A stretch of 48,162 bases of DNA. Source: Armatimonadota bacterium. Its GTDB lineage: Bacteria; Sysuimicrobiota; Sysuimicrobiia; Sysuimicrobiales; Humicultoraceae. Of this stretch, positions 3,950 to 22,726 are shown in pieces. The notes below the pieces were generated by a model. That model was not told the origin of the DNA. It made no database searches and saw only the letters and a program-made list of their open reading frames with translations. Position numbers and translations under genes: made by a program. Location: the NCBI GenBank assembly GCA_031459715.1, contig JAVKIA010000018.1, positions 1 through 48,162 of the forward strand. The letters are read 5' to 3'. Position 1 is the first letter of the stretch; every line of letters begins with the position of its first letter.

Positions 3950-4582
3950 ATGCCTCGCATCCTGCTCATCCGCCACGGGCAGACGGAGTGGAACCGGCGC
4001 GGAATCTTCCGCGGGCGGGTGGACATCCCCCTCAGCCCCACCGGGATCAGGCAGATGGAGGCCCTGGCGGCACGCGTGGCCGCAGAACGTCCGGCGCGCG
4101 TCTACACCAGCCCGCTGCAGAGGGCTCTCACCAGCGCGCGGATCCTCTGCCCGCCGGATGCGCATCCACCTCGGGTAGTGGAGGACCTGACGGACATGAG
4201 TTACGGCGAGTGGGAGGGCAAGCCCGAGGAAACGGTTCGCGCCCAGTACCCGGATCTCTACGCCCGCTGGCTGGCCGAGCCCCACCGGGTCCGTCCGCCA
4301 GGAGGAGAGTCGCTGGCGGAGGTGCAGCAGCGAGTCGCCGCCGCGCTGCGGGAGATCGCCCGGTCCCTCCCGGCGGCCACCGTGGCCGTCGTGGCGCACC
4401 GGGTGGTGAACAAGCTGCTGCTCTGCGCCGCGCTGGGGATTGGAGCGGAAGGTTTCTGGCGCATCCGGCAGGATACCGGGTGCCTCAATGTGCTCGAGGG
4501 GGAAGTAGACCGCCTGGCGGTGGTCCTGCTCAACGACACCTGCCACCTTCAGGGCCTGGAAGGAGACGCGGCAGACTTCTAG
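3950..4582 (+). CDS. histidine phosphatase family protein (PGM-like)
   Basis: This 210-residue cytosolic phosphatase belongs to the phosphoglycerate-mutase-like branch. The catalytic LIRHGQTEWN motif has Arg8-His9-Gly10 (phospho-histidine), followed by R-x-x-P-L-S-x-x-G (GRVDIPLSPTG), YTSPLQRA, the acid/base region MSYGEWEGK, and the second catalytic histidine in VVAHRVVNK. Related proteins act as α-ribazole phosphatases, 2,3-bisphosphoglycerate-independent sugar phosphatases or broad phosphatases; the substrate cannot be told. In many homologues the residue after VAH is G, here R. Its stop TAG lies within the palindrome CTAG (4579–4582), shared with the stop of the convergent sigma-factor gene. 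Confidence 0.9.
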   Translation: MPRILLIRHGQTEWNRRGIFRGRVDIPLSPTGIRQMEALAARVAAERPARVYTSPLQRALTSARILCPPDAHPPRVVEDLTDMSYGEWEGKPEETVRAQYPDLYARWLAEPHRVRPPGGESLAEVQQRVAAALREIARSLPAATVAVVAHRVVNKLLLCAALGIGAEGFWRIRQDTGCLNVLEGEVDRLAVVLLNDTCHLQGLEGDAADF

Positions 4583-5400
4583 CCACCCACTAGCGCCCGC
4601 AGCCGGGCCAGGGACTGCGCCAGGATTCGGGATACGTGCTTCTGGGAGATCCCGATGCGTCGGGCCGCCTCCCCCTGGGTCAGACCACCGAAGAAGAGGT
4701 AGTAGATCACGCGCCGCTGCAGCAGACTGAGGCGCTCCAGGGCCTGGTAGAGCACGATCTTGTCCTCAATGGGCAGGTGAAACGAGATGTAGGCACGGTG
4801 CCGGATGCGCCGGTGGTCGAACTGCACCTGCTCCTCATCGTCTGCGGCGTCCAGGGACACCGTGCGCACCGCCTCGCGCGTCTTCAGCAGCTCCCGCAGA
4901 CCCTCCTCCCGGATGTTGAGGCGGACGGCCAGCTCCTCCAGACCGGGATACCGCCCTTCCTCGCTCAGTGTGTGGGCCACCTCGGCCTCAATCTGCCGGT
5001 TGAGGCGACGCAGCCACCGCGGCTGGCGGATGATGTCCCGCTGGTCGCGGAGGTAGTGGAAGATCTCTCCCCGGATGAGGTGGTTGGCGTAGGTCCTAAA
5101 CTTCGTCCCCCGCGAGGGGTCGAAGAGCTCCAGCGCAGTGAGCAGGCCGATGTAACCCACCTGGCGGAGATCCTCCTCGGGGGCGCCGGCGGAGGCAAAG
5201 TCCAGCAGGGCCCGCTCGATGAGCGGCGCGTAGGCGGCGAGGATGCGCTCACGCAGCCCCGGGTCGCGCGTACGGGCATACTGCGCCGGGAGCAGCTCAG
5301 CCCCATGGGGGAGGTAGAGCCGCCAGAGGGCGAGGCGGTCCGCGCGCCGAGGTACTCGGGCTGCCTGCGCGACCGGTGTCATGAGAGGATCGGTGACCAT
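4579..5400 (-). CDS. group 3 sigma factor (σB/σF/σG type)
   Basis: This RNA polymerase sigma factor of about 273 residues has region 2 (DLRQVGYIGLLTALELFDP, then GTKFRTYANHLIRGEIFHYLRD, the core-binding and -10 recognition helix), region 3 (LEELAVRLNIREEGLRELL) and region 4 (LSLLQRRVIYYLFFGGLTQGEAARRIGISQKHVSRILAQSLARLR, the -35 helix-turn-helix). It has no region 1.1, as expected for σB/σF/σG-type alternative sigmas. No anti-sigma or anti-anti-sigma gene lies beside it. A σB-like promoter (GTCTA-N15-GGGCATA) ends 5 nt before the ATG at 5400, so transcription may begin at or near that ATG (a leaderless start). The alternative ATG is at 5382; neither has a Shine-Dalgarno sequence. Autoregulation is inferred. 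Confidence 0.92.
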   Translation of the reverse strand: MVTDPLMTPVAQAARVPRRADRLALWRLYLPHGAELLPAQYARTRDPGLRERILAAYAPLIERALLDFASAGAPEEDLRQVGYIGLLTALELFDPSRGTKFRTYANHLIRGEIFHYLRDQRDIIRQPRWLRRLNRQIEAEVAHTLSEEGRYPGLEELAVRLNIREEGLRELLKTREAVRTVSLDAADDEEQVQFDHRRIRHRAYISFHLPIEDKIVLYQALERLSLLQRRVIYYLFFGGLTQGEAARRIGISQKHVSRILAQSLARLRALVGG

Positions 5401-5405
5401 GGGTA

Positions 5406-5432
5406 TATGCCCGGCGCCGCAGCTGCGTAGAC
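5406..5432 (-). promoter_or_regulatory. GTCTA-N15-GGGCATA promoter of the sigma-factor gene
   Basis: On the minus strand GTCTA (5432–5428) is followed after exactly 15 nt by GGGCATA (5412–5406). The same pair occurs at 14898–14924, 15460–15487 and 22700–22726. It resembles σB/σF promoters (GTTT…GGGTA) more than σ70 ones. Confidence 0.65.
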
Positions 5433-11680: not shown

Positions 11681-12103
11681 TTAGGGGGTCTGGTAGGTGA
11701 TGCCGCCGGTGGCGTTGACCGTCACCGTCCCCTCCCCGGTGCTGTTGCGCAGGGTGATGGTGTGGGCGGCGTCCGGCTGCCCGAAGGCGGAGAAGGTGAC
11801 TAGGTCGTCGTCCGCGGCGGTAACCCCATCCGGCATGGTGGCGTTCTCCACGAACCCGCCGCCGGCGATCGTGTAGGCGGAAGAGTCCTCGACAAACGTG
11901 ACCGTGTACGGGACCCTGGCCTCCTTGGCCCGCTCCTGGGCCTGCCGCAGTCCGGTGGCCACCTGCACGATCCCGTAGCGCAGCCGCTGCTTCGCCACGT
12001 GCCCCCGCCAGGAGCTGAAGGCCAGGCCCAGCAAGACGGCCACCAGACTCAGGACGACGATCAGTTCCAGGAAGGTAAATCCCGCCGCCCGATCCCGCCT
12101 CAC
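11681..12103 (-). CDS. GspH/FimT-type pseudopilin
   Basis: This is a minor pseudopilin of about 140 residues. A short basic leader (VRRDRAAG) precedes the prepilin peptidase site G^FTFLELIVVLSLVAVLLGLAFSSW, with the conserved Glu at mature position 5. A β-rich globular domain follows, with the GspH-like amphipathic start (LRQAQERAKEARVPYTVTF). I chose the GTG at 12103 because it overlaps the stop of the upstream gene by 4 nt (GTGA) and has GGGAGG 7 nt upstream. It is last in the four-gene cluster. It probably sits at the tip of a type IV pilus or type II secretion pseudopilus; the assembly ATPase and secretin are not in this window. Confidence 0.88.
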   Translation of the reverse strand: MRRDRAAGFTFLELIVVLSLVAVLLGLAFSSWRGHVAKQRLRYGIVQVATGLRQAQERAKEARVPYTVTFVEDSSAYTIAGGGFVENATMPDGVTAADDDLVTFSAFGQPDAAHTITLRNSTGEGTVTVNATGGITYQTP

Positions 12104-14127
12104 GGACCGGCCTCCCGCCACACGGGGCGGACCCCGGCCAGACCCTGACTCCCCTGGAAGATCTCAAAGCGGTTGGTGGTGGGGAAGTAGGGGGGCGAGA
12201 AGCCACGGCTCATGCGACGGTCATAGCGGAACTCACGCCCGTAGCCGGTGCGCGGGTTGCCCGTGATCGGGTCAAAGGTTCCAAACGCCCCGTAGTACTC
12301 CTCGATGAGGCCTCCGATCAGGTAGACCGCCCCCCGGGGCGATCCCGAGTTGTAGTTCTGCACGTTCACCGAGCTGTTGTAGGAGTCGCTGGCGCTTCCG
12401 GCCATCAGGACGGCATGAATCTGCAGGTTGTTGGGCGCCGAAGTGGTGATGCGGATGTCCCTACCCGCGGAGTAGATCCCCAGGACGTTCAGCGGGTTAT
12501 CGTTAGGGTCGGTCACAACCGGGGGGTCCTCGTAGCGCAGGTGGTTGGTGATGTCGATGCGCCCGGAGGCGGCGATGGTGGTCTGCTCCTTCTCCTCCAG
12601 CATCCCGGACAGGGAGAGGATGTTTCCCTCGACATAGATGATGGCGGCGTTGTCGCTGCCCGGTCCCTGCCAGCCCTTGGGCACACCGGAGAAGGTGCGG
12701 GTCTGGGGGAGCGACCAGGCGCTGTTGGTCACCGTCGTCGTCCCGGCCTGGCGGTCCACGGTCACGGTCACCGTCTGCGAGCCCTGGACCAGGGTGTATA
12801 CGGCCAGGTTGTTGCTGGGACCGCCCAGGCTGAGCGTGAGCCTGTCCAGGTCGCCCTGGACGTAGATGCCTCCCCCCATGGGCTCGCCGTCCTCCGGATT
12901 CTCGTCGCCGTCCGTCTCCGCTACCGGGATGTAGATGCCGTTGGGCACCGGGTTGCCATTGTTTGTTAGCCCGGCGATGGCCCCCCTGATCTGAGAGTTG
13001 GTCACGGTGGAGGTGTCGTTGGGGTTGCGCCCGATAGAGACTCCCTTCTGGCTGTAGGCGTTGGTGGGCAGGGGAATGGCTGGCACGCCCCGGGTGAAGT
13101 TGGCCGGCGGGTTGTCCGCGTCGTCGGCGTAGTTGGTCGGGGTGCAGTCGGGCACCACCGGCGCGTCGCGGCGCACACCGCCCACCACGTTCTCGTTGGC
13201 GTTGAGCTCCCGGGGGTTGCCGTTGTTGTTGAACCAGGCCCGCGTGCTCACGCTGGTGAGGGGGGTGGTGGCGATGCGCGCGGGGTCGCAGGGGCTTCCG
13301 GAGTCAGGGGTGCCAAACTTGGGGAAGAAGGCGAAGCGGAACTCCCCGTTGGTGTGCACCGGCCCGTCAAAGCTGGTGCGGCTGGTGAACCAGATCGCGC
13401 CCCCGCCCGGCGTCAGGTGCACGTCGGTGAAGAGCGCGTACTGGGCGAAGTTCTGCCGCCGTATCCGGATGCTGAAGTCGCGGCTCAGGGTGACCCGGCG
13501 GCGAGCCCGCGGCGGCATCTGGCCGTCGCTGGTGATGCTGTAGGTGAAGAAGTACTCGTACTCGTCCGGGCCGAGCCTGTGGATGTAGCACTCCTCGCCG
13601 GGCAGGCAGGATGGGTGGGCCACCTTGCGCCGGGAGATGACCACCGTGGCCGTGTACTGCCCGCTCCCCAGGGCGTTGACCGGTGGTGGGCCGGCGGCCA
13701 CCTCCAGCTTGCGGTGCGCCTGGGGGAGGTTCCAGTTCAGGTTGAAGGTGAGGGATTCAGTGGACGGGGTGGCCCCGATGGAGTAGCGCTGCCCGTCCAG
13801 GACGATGTAGTCAAACAGCCCGAAGGGGTTCTGCGCCGTCGGGTTCCCGCCGGCGAAGAAACCGAGCAGGTCGCCACCGCCCAGCGAGGAGTCCAGTGTG
13901 GCCACCCCGATGGGGTCGGCGTTCATCAGCGCCAGGAGGGCGGAACGGGCGCTCACCGCCCCGCCCTCGGCGATGTACAGGCTCTGCGCACCCGCCCGCC
14001 GCGCGGCGGTGAGGGCCATCTCCTTCCCCGTAAGATAGAGGACCAGCCCGCTCAGCACCGCCAGCACGAAGATCATCAGCAGCACCGAGGCGATGGCCAG
14101 TCCTCGCTGGTCACGCAGCCGGCTCAT
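12100..14127 (-). CDS. large PilX-like pilus-associated protein
   Basis: This is a protein of about 675 residues with an N-terminal PilX-type segment: MSRLRDQRGLAIASVLLMIF, then a single helix to about residue 31 and YLTGKEM. There is no canonical prepilin GF..E site, as is usual for PilX_N proteins. The long exported remainder is rich in N, G, T and S, with FDGPVHTNGEFRF, repeated short β-helix-like patches and SGRIDITNHLRY. This resembles DUF4900-type proteins found beside minor pilins in Deinococcus–Thermus and related groups (from memory). Two clustered cysteines (CLPGEECY) may form a disulfide. Its start follows an AGGGAAGG-like site. It sits between two pilin genes, so it may be a minor pilus subunit or adhesin. 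Confidence 0.75.
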   Translation of the reverse strand: MSRLRDQRGLAIASVLLMIFVLAVLSGLVLYLTGKEMALTAARRAGAQSLYIAEGGAVSARSALLALMNADPIGVATLDSSLGGGDLLGFFAGGNPTAQNPFGLFDYIVLDGQRYSIGATPSTESLTFNLNWNLPQAHRKLEVAAGPPPVNALGSGQYTATVVISRRKVAHPSCLPGEECYIHRLGPDEYEYFFTYSITSDGQMPPRARRRVTLSRDFSIRIRRQNFAQYALFTDVHLTPGGGAIWFTSRTSFDGPVHTNGEFRFAFFPKFGTPDSGSPCDPARIATTPLTSVSTRAWFNNNGNPRELNANENVVGGVRRDAPVVPDCTPTNYADDADNPPANFTRGVPAIPLPTNAYSQKGVSIGRNPNDTSTVTNSQIRGAIAGLTNNGNPVPNGIYIPVAETDGDENPEDGEPMGGGIYVQGDLDRLTLSLGGPSNNLAVYTLVQGSQTVTVTVDRQAGTTTVTNSAWSLPQTRTFSGVPKGWQGPGSDNAAIIYVEGNILSLSGMLEEKEQTTIAASGRIDITNHLRYEDPPVVTDPNDNPLNVLGIYSAGRDIRITTSAPNNLQIHAVLMAGSASDSYNSSVNVQNYNSGSPRGAVYLIGGLIEEYYGAFGTFDPITGNPRTGYGREFRYDRRMSRGFSPPYFPTTNRFEIFQGSQGLAGVRPVWREAGP

Positions 14128-14225
14128 CCTTCCCTCGCCTCCGTGGAGGCCAGCGCCGGAGCACCCGGAGAATCGCGTGTGATTCTCGGGGAACCTCGCT
14201 GCGCCATGTTCTCTCGGGTAGACCC

Positions 14226-14804
14226 CTATCGCGCCCGCAGGGCGGCGTCGCTGGTGAACACCCGGCTGACCTGGTTCTGGGTGGTGGTCACGGTCAGGCG
14301 CACCCGGGCGATGGCTCCCACGTCCGGCGGCGTCGCTCCCAGCGGGGTCCCGCCGGCATCGAAGTACTCGAAGGCCACGCCGGGGCTCCCGTCCTCCTGC
14401 ACCACCGAGTAGGCCAGCGCCTCCGCCGGCCCGGGCAGCCCCGGCCCGCCGGCGTCGGGGTCGACCTGACGGGTCATGGTCCTGGCCGCGGCGTCGTAGG
14501 CGAAGGTCACCGTGTAGGGGCTCGTTGCAGAGAAGGGCGTGTTCTGGGGGATGAGCAGGGTCACCGATGTCCCGCTGGCGGCGGTAACGGTCTGCGCCCA
14601 GCGAATCTCGTCCACCACGTTGTCCAGCGCCGCCCGCAGTTGCGCCTGCGTCTGCAGGAAGTCGTTGGTCACGCGGGCCGACTTCCCTCCGGTGGCGACC
14701 AACGCGTAGATTCCCCCTACCGCCAGGGCAAACAGCCCCAGCGCCATGACGATCTCGAGCAAAGTCGCTCCCCGGGGGCCTCGCCGGAGCTGCCTGGCGC
14801 TCAC
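14226..14804 (-). CDS. PilW/GspJ-like prepilin
   Basis: This is a minor prepilin of about 192 residues. Leader VSARQLRRGPRG is followed by ATLLEIVMALGLFALAVGGIYALVATGG, a type III signal with G before the cut and Glu at mature position 5. The body begins with the long helix typical of GspJ/PilW (QTQAQLRAALDNVVDEIRWA) and then β-strands. The GTG at 14804 was chosen because AAGGAGG lies 8 nt upstream. It has its own σB-like promoter (14898–14924), separate from the gene before it. Confidence 0.85.
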   Translation of the reverse strand: MSARQLRRGPRGATLLEIVMALGLFALAVGGIYALVATGGKSARVTNDFLQTQAQLRAALDNVVDEIRWAQTVTAASGTSVTLLIPQNTPFSATSPYTVTFAYDAAARTMTRQVDPDAGGPGLPGPAEALAYSVVQEDGSPGVAFEYFDAGGTPLGATPPDVGAIARVRLTVTTTQNQVSRVFTSDAALRAR

Positions 14805-14897
14805 CGGGCCACCCTCCTTTCGCCCGTGCTGCCCGCGTACAGCATGCCGCACCGCCTCGGGCGGGGTGCCTGAAGGTCCGAAAAGCCGCCATGGATA

Positions 14898-14924
14898 TAT
14901 GCCCGGATGTGCCCGGCGGCAGAC
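14898..14924 (-). promoter_or_regulatory. GTCTG-N15-GGGCATA promoter inside the pilin cluster
   Basis: GTCTG (14924–14920), 15 nt, then GGGCATA (14904–14898) on the minus strand, in the gap before the PilW/GspJ-like gene. After the box the sequence runs TATCCATGG, almost the same as before the sigma-factor gene (TACCCATGG). Confidence 0.6.
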
Positions 14925-14945: not shown

Positions 14946-15380
14946 CTACTGGTCATCGAGCACGGTGGTCAGGGTGACGAACGGCGTTATGTCCGCCGGC
15001 CGGTAGATCTGCACGCTGGCGGTGGTGAGCGTAAGGTTGTCGTCGCGGGTCACGTCGACCGCCACCTCAAAGACGTGCGGCGAAGGATTGACCACCCCGG
15101 CGTAGGGAGCCGGCAGCGGCAGCGGCGTCCGGGGCAGGTCGGTGTACCCCACCATCTCGTAGGGGTTGGCGCTGGCGCGGATCTGCTCCATGATCTGAAT
15201 GGCCAGGGTCGTCGCCGCGGCGTTTTCATTGGAACGACCGGCGTGGGCCATGCCGCCGATGAACGCCTGCAGGACGAAGAGGGAGACGGCGGCGAACAGT
15301 GACAGCGCCACCATCAGTTCCACAAAGGTGAATCCGGCGCTGCGGGGGCGCTTCTGCGCCTTCGCCGGAAACGTGCTCAT
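14946..15380 (-). CDS. PilV/GspI-like prepilin
   Basis: This is a minor prepilin of about 144 residues. Leader MSTFPAKAQKRPRSAG precedes FTFVELMVALSLFAAVSLFVLQAFIGGMAHA, with Glu at mature position 5. The globular part contains the PilV-like AIQIMEQIRASANPYEMVGYTDLP. I chose ATG 15380 (GGAG 3 nt upstream) over ATG 15410, because a long basic leader is unneeded. It is first in the cluster and lies about 50 nt after a σB-like promoter. Together with the three downstream genes it would form the tip complex of a pilus or pseudopilus. Confidence 0.85.
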   Translation of the reverse strand: MSTFPAKAQKRPRSAGFTFVELMVALSLFAAVSLFVLQAFIGGMAHAGRSNENAAATTLAIQIMEQIRASANPYEMVGYTDLPRTPLPLPAPYAGVVNPSPHVFEVAVDVTRDDNLTLTTASVQIYRPADITPFVTLTTVLDDQ

Positions 15381-15459: not shown

Positions 15460-15487
15460 TATGCCCAGAGAGGCGGGCGTCTTAGAC
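15460..15487 (-). promoter_or_regulatory. GTCTA-N16-GGGCATA promoter of the first pilin gene
   Basis: TTCGTCTAAGA (GTCTA at 15487–15483) and GGGCATA (15466–15460) on the minus strand, spacer 16. The TTCGTCTAAGA block is identical to the one before the transposase-like gene at 22700–22726. Confidence 0.6.
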
Positions 15488-20732: not shown

Positions 20733-21818
20733 TCACCCCAGCAGTGACAGGACGGCGCGGCCGACCGCCTCCTCCGTAGGGGGCACCGGCGGGGGGAGCG
20801 CCGCGGCACGGGGCAGGGCCTGGGGGTCCTTCAGGCCGTGCCCGGTGAGGACGCAGACGACGATCCCACCGCGGGGCGGCTCGGCCTCAGCCAGCTCAAG
20901 CAGCCCGGCCACCGCGGCCGCCGAGGCGGGTTCCACCAAGACGCCCTCCTCGACAGCGAGCCGCTCCTGGGCTGCCAGGATGGCCTCATCGGTCACCTTG
21001 ATGAATCGCCCGCGGGACTCACTGGCCGCGGCCACCGCGCCCTGCCAGCTGGCCGGATTGCCGATGCGAATGGCGCTGGCCACAGTCTGAGGGCACTCCA
21101 CCGGACGGCCGTCTACCAGCGGCGCCGCCCCCGCGGCCTGCACTCCCACCATGCGGGGAGGCGCGGCAATGCGGCCTGCGGCCTGGTACTCCAGGAAACC
21201 CCGCCAGTAGGCGGTGATGTTACCTGCGTTACCCACCGGCAGGACCAGCAGGTCCGGGGCCGACCCGAGGACGTCGCAGATCTCAAAGGCCGCCGTCTTC
21301 TGCCCGGCGATGCGGTGCGGGTTCACCGAGTTCACCAGCGCCAGCTCCAGCCGTGCGCTGACCTCCCGCGTCACCGCCAGGGCCACGTCGAATCCTCCCT
21401 CGACCGTGACCAGCCGCGCTCCGTGGGCGAAGGCCTGCGCCAGCTTGCCCGCCGCCACCCCCGCGGCCGGCAGGACGATCAGGCAGGGGAGCCCTGCACG
21501 TGCGGCGTAGGCCGCCGCCGAGGCCGCGGTGTTGCCGGTGGAAGCGCAGATCACGGCGCGGCTGCCCGCCTCCAGCGCCTTGGAGACCGCCACCGTCATT
21601 CCCCGGTCCTTGAACGACCCGCTGGGGTTCGTGCTCTCCAGCTTGAAGAGCAGATGCACCCCTAGCCGCGGCCCCAGCCGGGCCGACTCCACTAGCGGCG
21701 TGTTCCCCTCCAGCAGAGTGATCACCGGGGTCTGCGAGGTCACCGGGAGGAAGGGACGGTAGCGCTCGATCACACCCGGCCAGGCATGAGTGTCCACTCG
21801 GCGGTGTAGCAAAGACAT
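20733..21818 (-). CDS. thrC: threonine synthase (short type)
   Basis: This 361-residue PLP enzyme converts O-phosphohomoserine to threonine. It has the short-type opening VIERYRPFLPVTSQTPVITLLEGNTPLV, then Lys70 in ESTNPSGSFKDRGM (Schiff base), ASTGNTAASAAAYAARAGL, the phosphate-site VNSVNPHRIAGQKT and LPVGNAGNITAYWRGF. This is the common threonine synthase of Gram-positive and many other bacteria, without the zinc ribbon of the neighbouring paralogue. It follows the transposase-derived gene by 34 nt on the same strand, so it may be co-transcribed from the σB-like promoter at 22700. ATG 21818 lacks a strong Shine-Dalgarno. Confidence 0.93.
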   Translation of the reverse strand: MSLLHRRVDTHAWPGVIERYRPFLPVTSQTPVITLLEGNTPLVESARLGPRLGVHLLFKLESTNPSGSFKDRGMTVAVSKALEAGSRAVICASTGNTAASAAAYAARAGLPCLIVLPAAGVAAGKLAQAFAHGARLVTVEGGFDVALAVTREVSARLELALVNSVNPHRIAGQKTAAFEICDVLGSAPDLLVLPVGNAGNITAYWRGFLEYQAAGRIAAPPRMVGVQAAGAAPLVDGRPVECPQTVASAIRIGNPASWQGAVAAASESRGRFIKVTDEAILAAQERLAVEEGVLVEPASAAAVAGLLELAEAEPPRGGIVVCVLTGHGLKDPQALPRAAALPPPVPPTEEAVGRAVLSLLG

Positions 21819-21853: not shown

Positions 21854-22654
21854 CTACACCGTCGCCCCTACGGGGCTCCTCCCGGGCTCCGGGACATCGG
21901 CTGGGGTAGCGCCGGACCAGACCGGATCCGGTACAGGCGCCCCCTCGGGCGCAGGCGCACTCACCGTGCGGTAGAAGACCAGCGCCCCTCGCTCCCCAGC
22001 CGCATCGCCGGCTCCATCCAGGGTGGGGCGGCCAAGAGTCCCCGCCCGCAGCGCCTGAAGGTAGGTCTTGCGCACCGCGATGGCCGTGCGCACCTTCTTC
22101 CAGAGGCGACGGGGGAAACGGTAGAACGCCAGGTGCGCCGCCAGTTCCGCCTCCAGCCCCTCCACCACCCTGTGGTCCCGATGCCGCCAGCGCAACCGCC
22201 AGGCGCGAAAGCGCGCGACCGCGGTCTCCAGGTCGGGCGCGGTGAAGATGCGCCGTACCTCGGCCAGCCACGCGGGACGCGCGCCCTCGGTCTGCCGGGC
22301 CCAGGCCAGCAGCCGGTGGGTCACGCTCACCTGGATGTAGGTGCGTGGGTAGGTCTTCCTGAGAGCCCTGCACATGGTGGGCTGCCCAGACGCGCAGACA
22401 AGCAGCGGGCGATCCGCCATCACCGCCGCCAGGCGGGCGAGGAAGGCGCGCCACGCCTCTTCCTTCTCCTCTTCGGCCACCTCCACCGCCAGGAAGCGGC
22501 GCGTCCCGGCGGCGCTGAGGCCGAGAGCGGCCAGGACGACCCCCTGCGACGCAGGGGGAGGTGCCGGGAAGCTGTCCAGGAGCACAAAGGGTGCGGCCAC
22601 CCGCACCGGCGTCTCGCCACAGCCGTCCACCACCCTGTCCACCAGCGTCCGCAT
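21854..22654 (-). CDS. IS256/mutator-type transposase-derived protein, catalytic residues lost
   Basis: This is a protein of about 266 residues with the layout of the IS256 (mutator) transposase core: FVLLDSFPAP (first Asp, like LDGTY), GVVLAALGLSAAGTRRFLAVEVAEEEKEEAWRAFL, LVCASGQPTMCRALRKTYP, EVRRIFTAPDLETA and YRFPRRLWKKVRT. The second Asp (VISDAHEGL in active enzymes) aligns with Ser in VCASGQ. The terminal STNPLER motif is VRTAIAVRK, so Glu is missing. The N-terminal DNA-binding third is absent, and the C-terminus is a Pro/Gly-rich tail. No terminal inverted repeats were recognised. The frame is intact and a conserved promoter precedes it, so it may be domesticated. ATG 22654 is chosen for GGGGGGAG upstream. 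Confidence 0.7.
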   Translation of the reverse strand: MRTLVDRVVDGCGETPVRVAAPFVLLDSFPAPPPASQGVVLAALGLSAAGTRRFLAVEVAEEEKEEAWRAFLARLAAVMADRPLLVCASGQPTMCRALRKTYPRTYIQVSVTHRLLAWARQTEGARPAWLAEVRRIFTAPDLETAVARFRAWRLRWRHRDHRVVEGLEAELAAHLAFYRFPRRLWKKVRTAIAVRKTYLQALRAGTLGRPTLDGAGDAAGERGALVFYRTVSAPAPEGAPVPDPVWSGATPADVPEPGRSPVGATV

Positions 22655-22699: not shown

Positions 22700-22726
22700 T
22701 ATGCCCGGTCCGCCCCATTCTTAGAC
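22700..22726 (-). promoter_or_regulatory. GTCTA-N15-GGGCATA promoter of the transposase-derived gene
   Basis: TTCGTCTAAGA (GTCTA at 22726–22722) and GGGCATA (22706–22700) on the minus strand, spacer 15. The predicted start is about 40 nt before ATG 22654. The -35 block is identical to that at 15483–15487. Confidence 0.6.

Follow-up and report, generated by a model that had tools for sequence, protein, structure and literature searches.

A conserved two-part promoter-like motif associated with SigF-like sigma factors and type-IV pilin genes in Sysuimicrobiota

The promoters of Bacillus SigB, SigF and SigG and of actinobacterial SigF and SigB have the form GTTT...GGGTA, in which a GT-rich -35 element and a GGG(T/C)AT -10 element lie 14–16 nt apart, and their regulons serve stress responses or sporulation. 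The closest described precedent for the system analyzed here is the SigF of cyanobacteria, a group 3 sigma factor. SigF of Synechocystis (Slr1564) directly transcribes sigF itself as well as the pilA1 promoter, as demonstrated in vitro and by knock-out (review, PMC2758279), and the only stringent requirement for sigF in Nostoc is that of pilA (PMC6495340). In Nostoc punctiforme, the J-Box of SigJ is an extended -10 element with an invariant GGG triplet that is found at motility and pilus targets (PMC6495340). In Clostridioides difficile, c-di-GMP riboswitches are positioned on the flagellar operon, with SigD under c-di-GMP control, and on a pilin operon (PMC11477304). The main text of the paper that named the phylum Sysuimicrobiota (CSP1-3) mentions neither pili nor sigma factors (PMC11604079).

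The window, a 48,162-nucleotide stretch of contig JAVKIA010000018.1 from a Sysuimicrobiota metagenome assembly, encodes a SigF-like sigma factor of 273 residues (4579–5400, minus strand). A second SigF-like sigma factor is encoded elsewhere in the genome (C8:48630–49349) and is 59% identical to the window sigma over the aligned part. Like cyanobacterial SigF, the window sigma contains regions 2, 3, and 4; as in the SigB/SigF/SigG subfamily, it lacks region 1.1, and its only Pfam matches are Sigma70_r2, r3, and r4. Promoter-like sites precede major pilin genes and the window sigma gene, and transcription of type-IV pilins would be a further likeness to cyanobacterial SigF. However, the two proteins belong to a different phylum, and with 146 bits (window) and 157 bits (C8) against the second-best model, cyanobacterial SigF PRK07408, they are non-members by its curated cut-off of 261 bits. 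The system also differs from that of cyanobacteria in its GTCTR -35 box and 15-nt spacer, in the roadblock gene that accompanies the sigma gene, in the riboswitch of the c-di-GMP class that precedes the conserved sigma gene, and in a broader set of putative targets, which includes c-di-GMP enzymes. The best model is TIGR02980 (SigBFG, NCBIfam) for the window sigma (159 bits), the C8 paralog (184 bits), and a relative from the bacterium UR.bin48 (203 bits), all of which remain below its cut-off of 234.35 bits. The assignment of the window sigma to the SigB/F class in the initial annotation therefore agrees with the best-matching model, whereas the scores do not reach the curated cut-off of any named SigB/F/G family. 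The promoter-like motif shares the two-part organization of SigB/SigF/SigG promoters; however, GTCT replaces GTTT, and the predicted regulon consists of pilus genes instead of stress or sporulation genes. The GGG triplet and the pilus targets are shared with the J-Box of SigJ, the -35 region of which is weak and AT-rich, whereas GTCTR is strongly conserved here and the spacer is fixed. By contrast to the C. difficile system, in which a flagellar sigma factor is combined with a pilin operon bearing a separate class II riboswitch, a single SigF-like sigma factor with a class I riboswitch of the GGC variant appears to stand above the pilin regulon.

An exact search of the window for GTCTR-N15/16-GGGCATA returned the four minus-strand sites of the initial annotation and none on the plus strand, compared to a mean of 0.02 matches in 100 dinucleotide shuffles. 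Reading of the surrounding sequence bore out that each of the four lies between genes and is oriented towards the next one. Site 1 (GTCTA-N15-GGGCATA, 5406–5432, minus strand) is flanked by the window sigma gene, which starts with ATG 5400, and by a divergent cupredoxin-like gene. Site 2 (GTCTG-N15-GGGCATA, 14,898–14,924, minus strand) separates two pilin genes. A 930-residue open reading frame with a start at 14,892 was considered as the gene served by site 2 and was rejected, because it is in the wrong frame and the pilin follows in another one. Site 3 (GTCTA-N16-GGGCATA, 15,460–15,487, minus strand) precedes a pseudopilin operon. Site 4 (GTCTA-N15-GGGCATA, 22,700–22,726, minus strand) is positioned upstream of a transposase-derived gene starting with ATG 22,654.

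The 2.76-Mb assembly that contains the window is divided into 75 contigs and has nine exact matches to the pattern, whereas the reversed-pattern control has none. Besides the four sites on the window contig, which are near the window sigma gene and include its own upstream site, there are five others. Three of them precede a pseudopilin operon (C2:47658), a major pilin (C8:34101), and a three-pilin operon (C8:48100). The fourth (C8:56305) is upstream of a small protein of unrecognized family, and the fifth (C37:4348–4374) is in front of a doubtful short open reading frame flanked by genes for an ABC transporter and a MurA-like protein, where a small RNA or a small protein is possibly encoded. 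Loosening of the -10 box to GGGYATR resulted in 17 matches against two in the control, and GTCT-N15-18-GGGCAT in 29 matches against 14. The increase in control matches indicates that the R and the last A of the motif are informative.

The motif is retained in relatives of the organism, as determined by counting matches and reversed-pattern matches in 61 genomes. There are 43 matches against one in the 11 genomes of the same family, 72 against 10 in family f7, and 19 against four in family f2. Family f4 has three against two; it possesses a close ortholog of the sigma factor, yet few exact sites, and one of its major pilins is preceded by the variant GTCTA-N15-GGGTAAA. Genomes from outside the order have six matches against 10 in the control. 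When the spacer between the boxes was allowed to vary from 3 to 28 nt, 37 of the 86 pairs in the same family were separated by exactly 15 nt, whereas other lengths occurred about 1.8 times on average; the corresponding numbers for family f7 are 58 of 92 and a mean of 0.96. Among 42 distinct sites, 34 are intergenic, compared to 19% of random positions, so that sites are not equally common inside genes, and 30 have the start of a gene on the same strand within 300 nt, compared to 15% of random positions, although the sites in related genomes are non-independent and the statistics therefore overstate the case. These three lines of evidence, from reversed patterns, free spacers, and site positions, differ in kind and are concordant. 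The evidence is drawn entirely from the sequences of metagenome assemblies. The GT-rich -35 box, the spacer peak at 15 nt within the 14–16-nt range, and the GGG(T/C)AT -10 box are those of SigB/SigF-class promoters. The similarity to these promoters that had been pointed out for the window is reinforced by the fixed spacer, the intergenic placement upstream of pilins, and the conservation in relatives.

The first gene downstream of site 3 encodes a GspI/ComGE-like pseudopilin (GFTFVELMVALSLF; 14,946–15,380, minus strand), which has a Pfam N_methyl match, weak matches to GspI and ComGE, and an ATG start at 15,380 with a ribosome-binding site. It is followed, beyond site 2, by a second pseudopilin gene (GATLLEIVMALGLFALAVGG; 14,226–14,804, minus strand), which begins with GTG 14,804 behind a GGAGG ribosome-binding site and encodes the N-terminus RGATLLEIVMALGLFALAVGG. 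The N_methyl match of the second pseudopilin (C18:14,706–14,783) scores 18.8 bits, which is below the cut-off, and the gene order matches that of the pilin operons at loci L144, L086, and L158. The operon continues with a gene for a pilus-associated protein with a Pfam DUF4900 match (12,100–14,230, minus strand, start approximate), homologs of which are 690–730 residues long and occupy the same place in the same three loci. The last gene of the operon encodes a GspH-like pseudopilin (11,681–12,121, minus strand, start approximate; N_methyl match C18:12,017–12,091). The order of pilin, pilin, DUF4900, and GspH-like genes is the same in the operons of genomes G006 and G007. The orthologous pilin of G006 has GTCTA-N16-GGGCATA at the same place as site 3, and the operon of G007 is located directly 3' of sigma and roadblock genes, the upstream region of which contains GTCTA-N15-GGGTATA. 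The same genome as the window also has a paralog of the four-gene operon (L158:14,011–17,750, contig C8), which is without an exact site upstream.

The pseudopilin regulon proposed in the initial annotation is strongly supported by a count in eight genomes of the family. At 14 of 81 sites of the GGGYATR form, a pilin with an N_methyl match is encoded on the same strand no more than 400 nt downstream, whereas 0.11 are expected, an excess of approximately 130-fold over chance. The -10 variants at pilins are GGGCATA, GGGTATA, and GGGTATG. The pilin operons at C2 and C8:48100 are each preceded by a site; however, the N_methyl model does not recognize their first pilins, which are too divergent. 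Other downstream genes encode PilT-like ATPases (four genomes), GAF-HD-GYP proteins (six), response regulators with a GGDEF domain (two), and one histidine kinase. An exact site is present at only two of the nine N_methyl clusters in the genome that contains the window, or at four if divergent pilins are counted. Therefore, other promoters or variants of the motif must exist.

The inclusion of the transposase-derived gene in the regulon is plausible. The gene downstream of site 4 (21,854–22,654, minus strand) encodes a protein derived from an IS256 transposase, with a Pfam Transposase_mut match to the catalytic part only, and the alignment with its relatives shows that the second and third catalytic positions (D and E) have been lost in the window copy. 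Its interpretation as a decayed remnant of an insertion sequence, on the grounds that it is shorter than full transposases, was rejected, because the N-terminally shortened form is common to relatives from several genera. Most of the shortened relatives retain the catalytic D/D/E. The shortened family includes the window protein and those at loci L192, L179, L180, L181, L182, and L183, several of which have a C-terminal hydrophobic helix. In genomes G001, G006, and G007, a c-di-GMP-I-GGC riboswitch is located just 5' of the transposase-derived gene. These proteins seem to be domesticated and connected with the same regulatory network. A threonine synthase-like gene follows the transposase-derived gene in the window (20,733–21,770, minus strand), and a threonine synthase-like gene is also found 3' of a motif site in genome G004 (L079:1456–2974), where it follows a riboswitch and a 67-residue open reading frame.

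The two SigF-like sigma factors differ in their distribution. In a phylogenetic tree, the only sequence that clusters with the window sigma is an ortholog from the same genus, whereas the C8 sigma falls among copies that occur family-wide. Among named records, the window sigma is closest to a protein from Armatimonadetes bacterium CSP1-3 XU14 (LDXQ01000016.1), which places the window in the phylum CSP1-3. The motif is equally conserved in members of the family in which no window-type paralog was found; therefore, it is more likely that the C8-type sigma read the motif originally and that the window copy, which has its own site, was added later. This modifies the initial annotation, in which the window sigma was regarded as the cognate sigma factor of the motif. 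The autoregulation proposed for the window sigma is suggested by site 1 and by the retention of this site in a single other genome: the orthologous region in G001, which is from the same genus, contains GTCTAC-N15-GGGCATG. By comparison, no matching site was found in the region 5' of the C8 sigma gene. The ATG of the window sigma gene is 5 nt from GGGCATA; an equally spaced ATG in G001 is out of frame with the sigma gene. It is possible that the sigma mRNA of the window gene alone is leaderless, with the start codon near the transcription start.

A roadblock/MglB-like gene is located directly 3' of the conserved sigma gene (L103:3245–4458, L144:7138–8401, L152:10,217–11,449, and L147:15,051–16,357), which suggests that the two form a functional pair across families. 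The roadblock/MglB-like protein could be a regulator of the sigma factor or of pilus polarity. No anti-sigma gene of the RsbW/SpoIIAB type was recognized next to any of the examined sigma genes. The site beside the sigma gene in family f7 (L155:9873–9899, and loci L124 and L125) faces the opposite way, towards a gene for a coiled-coil protein that is DivIVA-like in appearance.

The C8 sigma gene is preceded by a c-di-GMP-I-GGC riboswitch (RF03167, C8:49,637–49,714, equivalent to L103:4638–4715, minus strand), which scores 66.5 bits, above the gathering score of 59 bits. Nine other members of the bacterial family (G001, G002, and G004–G010) have RF03167 riboswitches with scores of 64–73 bits 5' of the sigma gene, and c-di-GMP-I-type riboswitches are upstream of the sigma gene in two genomes of family f2, one of f5, and one of f7. 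A scan of the window found no riboswitch, and the window sigma gene is thus without one. Seven of the 81 motif sites have a riboswitch within 150 nt downstream, compared to 0.016 expected, and the riboswitch leaders begin 17 to 97 nt downstream of the motif. A c-di-GMP-I-GGC riboswitch (RF03167, L103:9691–9801, minus strand) is also located before another gene in the same region as the C8 sigma gene, 20 nt after GTCTA-N15-GGGTATG. Some of the putative sigma-driven transcripts would thus carry a riboswitch sensor. From the match in sequence and structure, c-di-GMP is the predicted ligand, and any direction assigned to the riboswitch effect is likewise putative.

Two bacteria from outside the phylum have GTCTR-N15-GGGTATA upstream of a major pilin at loci that include a related sigma gene. 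The order in UR.bin48 (L210) is PilT, PilC, sigma, GTCTA-N15-GGGTATA, major pilin, prepilin peptidase, and PilM. In M_DeepCast (L219), PilT, PilC, and sigma are followed by GTCTG-N15-GGGTATA, which lies 60 nt upstream of the major pilin. Pilins are also preceded by weaker variants of the motif in one Atribacteria genome and in BWSM_10.

Besides the two SigF-like proteins, the genome encodes RpoD-type and ECF-type sigma factors and one of the FliA/WhiG type (C11:62983). Because SigF-like and FliA/WhiG-type factors coexist, the assignment of the motif depends on family, synteny, and analogy, all of which point to a SigF-like sigma as its probable reader. Known FliA promoters have the form TAAA-N15-GCCGATAA, which is unlike GTCTR-N15-GGGYATA, whereas the motif resembles SigB/SigF promoters. 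FliA is a relative of the SigB/F sigmas, and two families of the phylum are reported to have flagellar genes (PMC11604079), so that pilins could be co-regulated with motility by a flagellar-type factor. However, no flagellar gene is among the targets examined, and in UR.bin48 the related sigma gene adjoins both the motif and the gene for the pilin, while in M_DeepCast it is near both, a synteny that favors a SigF-like sigma. Recognition of the motif by FliA is thus unlikely. The window sigma as the sole reader of a private regulon would fit the clustering of four of the nine genomic sites, its own included, on the window contig; it is very unlikely, given that the motif is just as well conserved in members in which only the C8-type clade or other sigma copies were found, and that the window-type paralog groups with a single gene from the same genus.

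The motif could also be a binding site for a repressor or activator of pilin genes, with two half-sites 15 nt apart, in place of a core promoter. The computed evidence consists only of a conserved two-part site, and several sites and their start codons are more than 100 nt apart. However, the halves differ from each other and are non-palindromic, their orientation towards the gene is fixed, and their spacing is that of -35/-10 pairs; the riboswitch leaders, moreover, start where they would be expected after a transcription start. Such a binding site is quite unlikely. That the matches are accidents of a GC-rich genome might be suspected from the rapid gain of background by the loosened pattern, but the reversed controls, free-spacer test, enrichment in intergenic regions and at pilins, and recurrence in other phyla make this extremely improbable. 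The sequence features of the motif indicate that it is very probably a genuine promoter at which a SigF-like sigma switches on pilus genes. It is likely that this promoter defines a regulon of a group 3, SigB/F/G-related sigma factor for the production of type-IV pili and pseudopilins in Sysuimicrobiota.

GTCTR would serve as the -35 element and GGGYAT(A/G), 15 nt away, as the -10 element of the promoter. The conserved sigma gene, which has its roadblock partner downstream, would be transcribed with the c-di-GMP-I-GGC riboswitch leader, which, judging from its position, may gate synthesis of the sigma factor. The C8-type sigma would direct RNA polymerase to pilin operons, genes for PilT-like ATPases, and genes for c-di-GMP enzymes, and some of the target mRNAs would bear the same riboswitch just after the promoter. 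In the genus of the window organism, the C8-type sigma may also switch on the riboswitch-free window sigma gene, the product of which could prolong or amplify the response through the loop suggested by site 1. The complete scheme, in which a riboswitch-to-sigma relay controls type-IV pili, the window sigma locks the state, and the sigma–promoter pair is older than the phylum, is put forward tentatively, with somewhat less than even confidence; the age of the pair would follow from the recurrence of the promoter in other phyla, where it lies upstream of major pilins at loci with related sigma genes. Among the papers searched, none was found to describe a system in which a riboswitch, a pilin sigma factor, a roadblock partner, and a defined two-box promoter are combined.

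For a phylum that is largely uncultivated, the motif provides a testable promoter code and a candidate regulon of pilus production, and with this code pilus regulons could be predicted straight from genome assemblies. The genes around it offer a context for the c-di-GMP-I-GGC riboswitch variant, c-di-GMP being a lifestyle signal, and suggest that RNA-based sensing of a second messenger and an alternative sigma factor are joined in one circuit. The control of type-IV pilins by SigF-type factors, known in cyanobacteria, may be an old trait common to several phyla.
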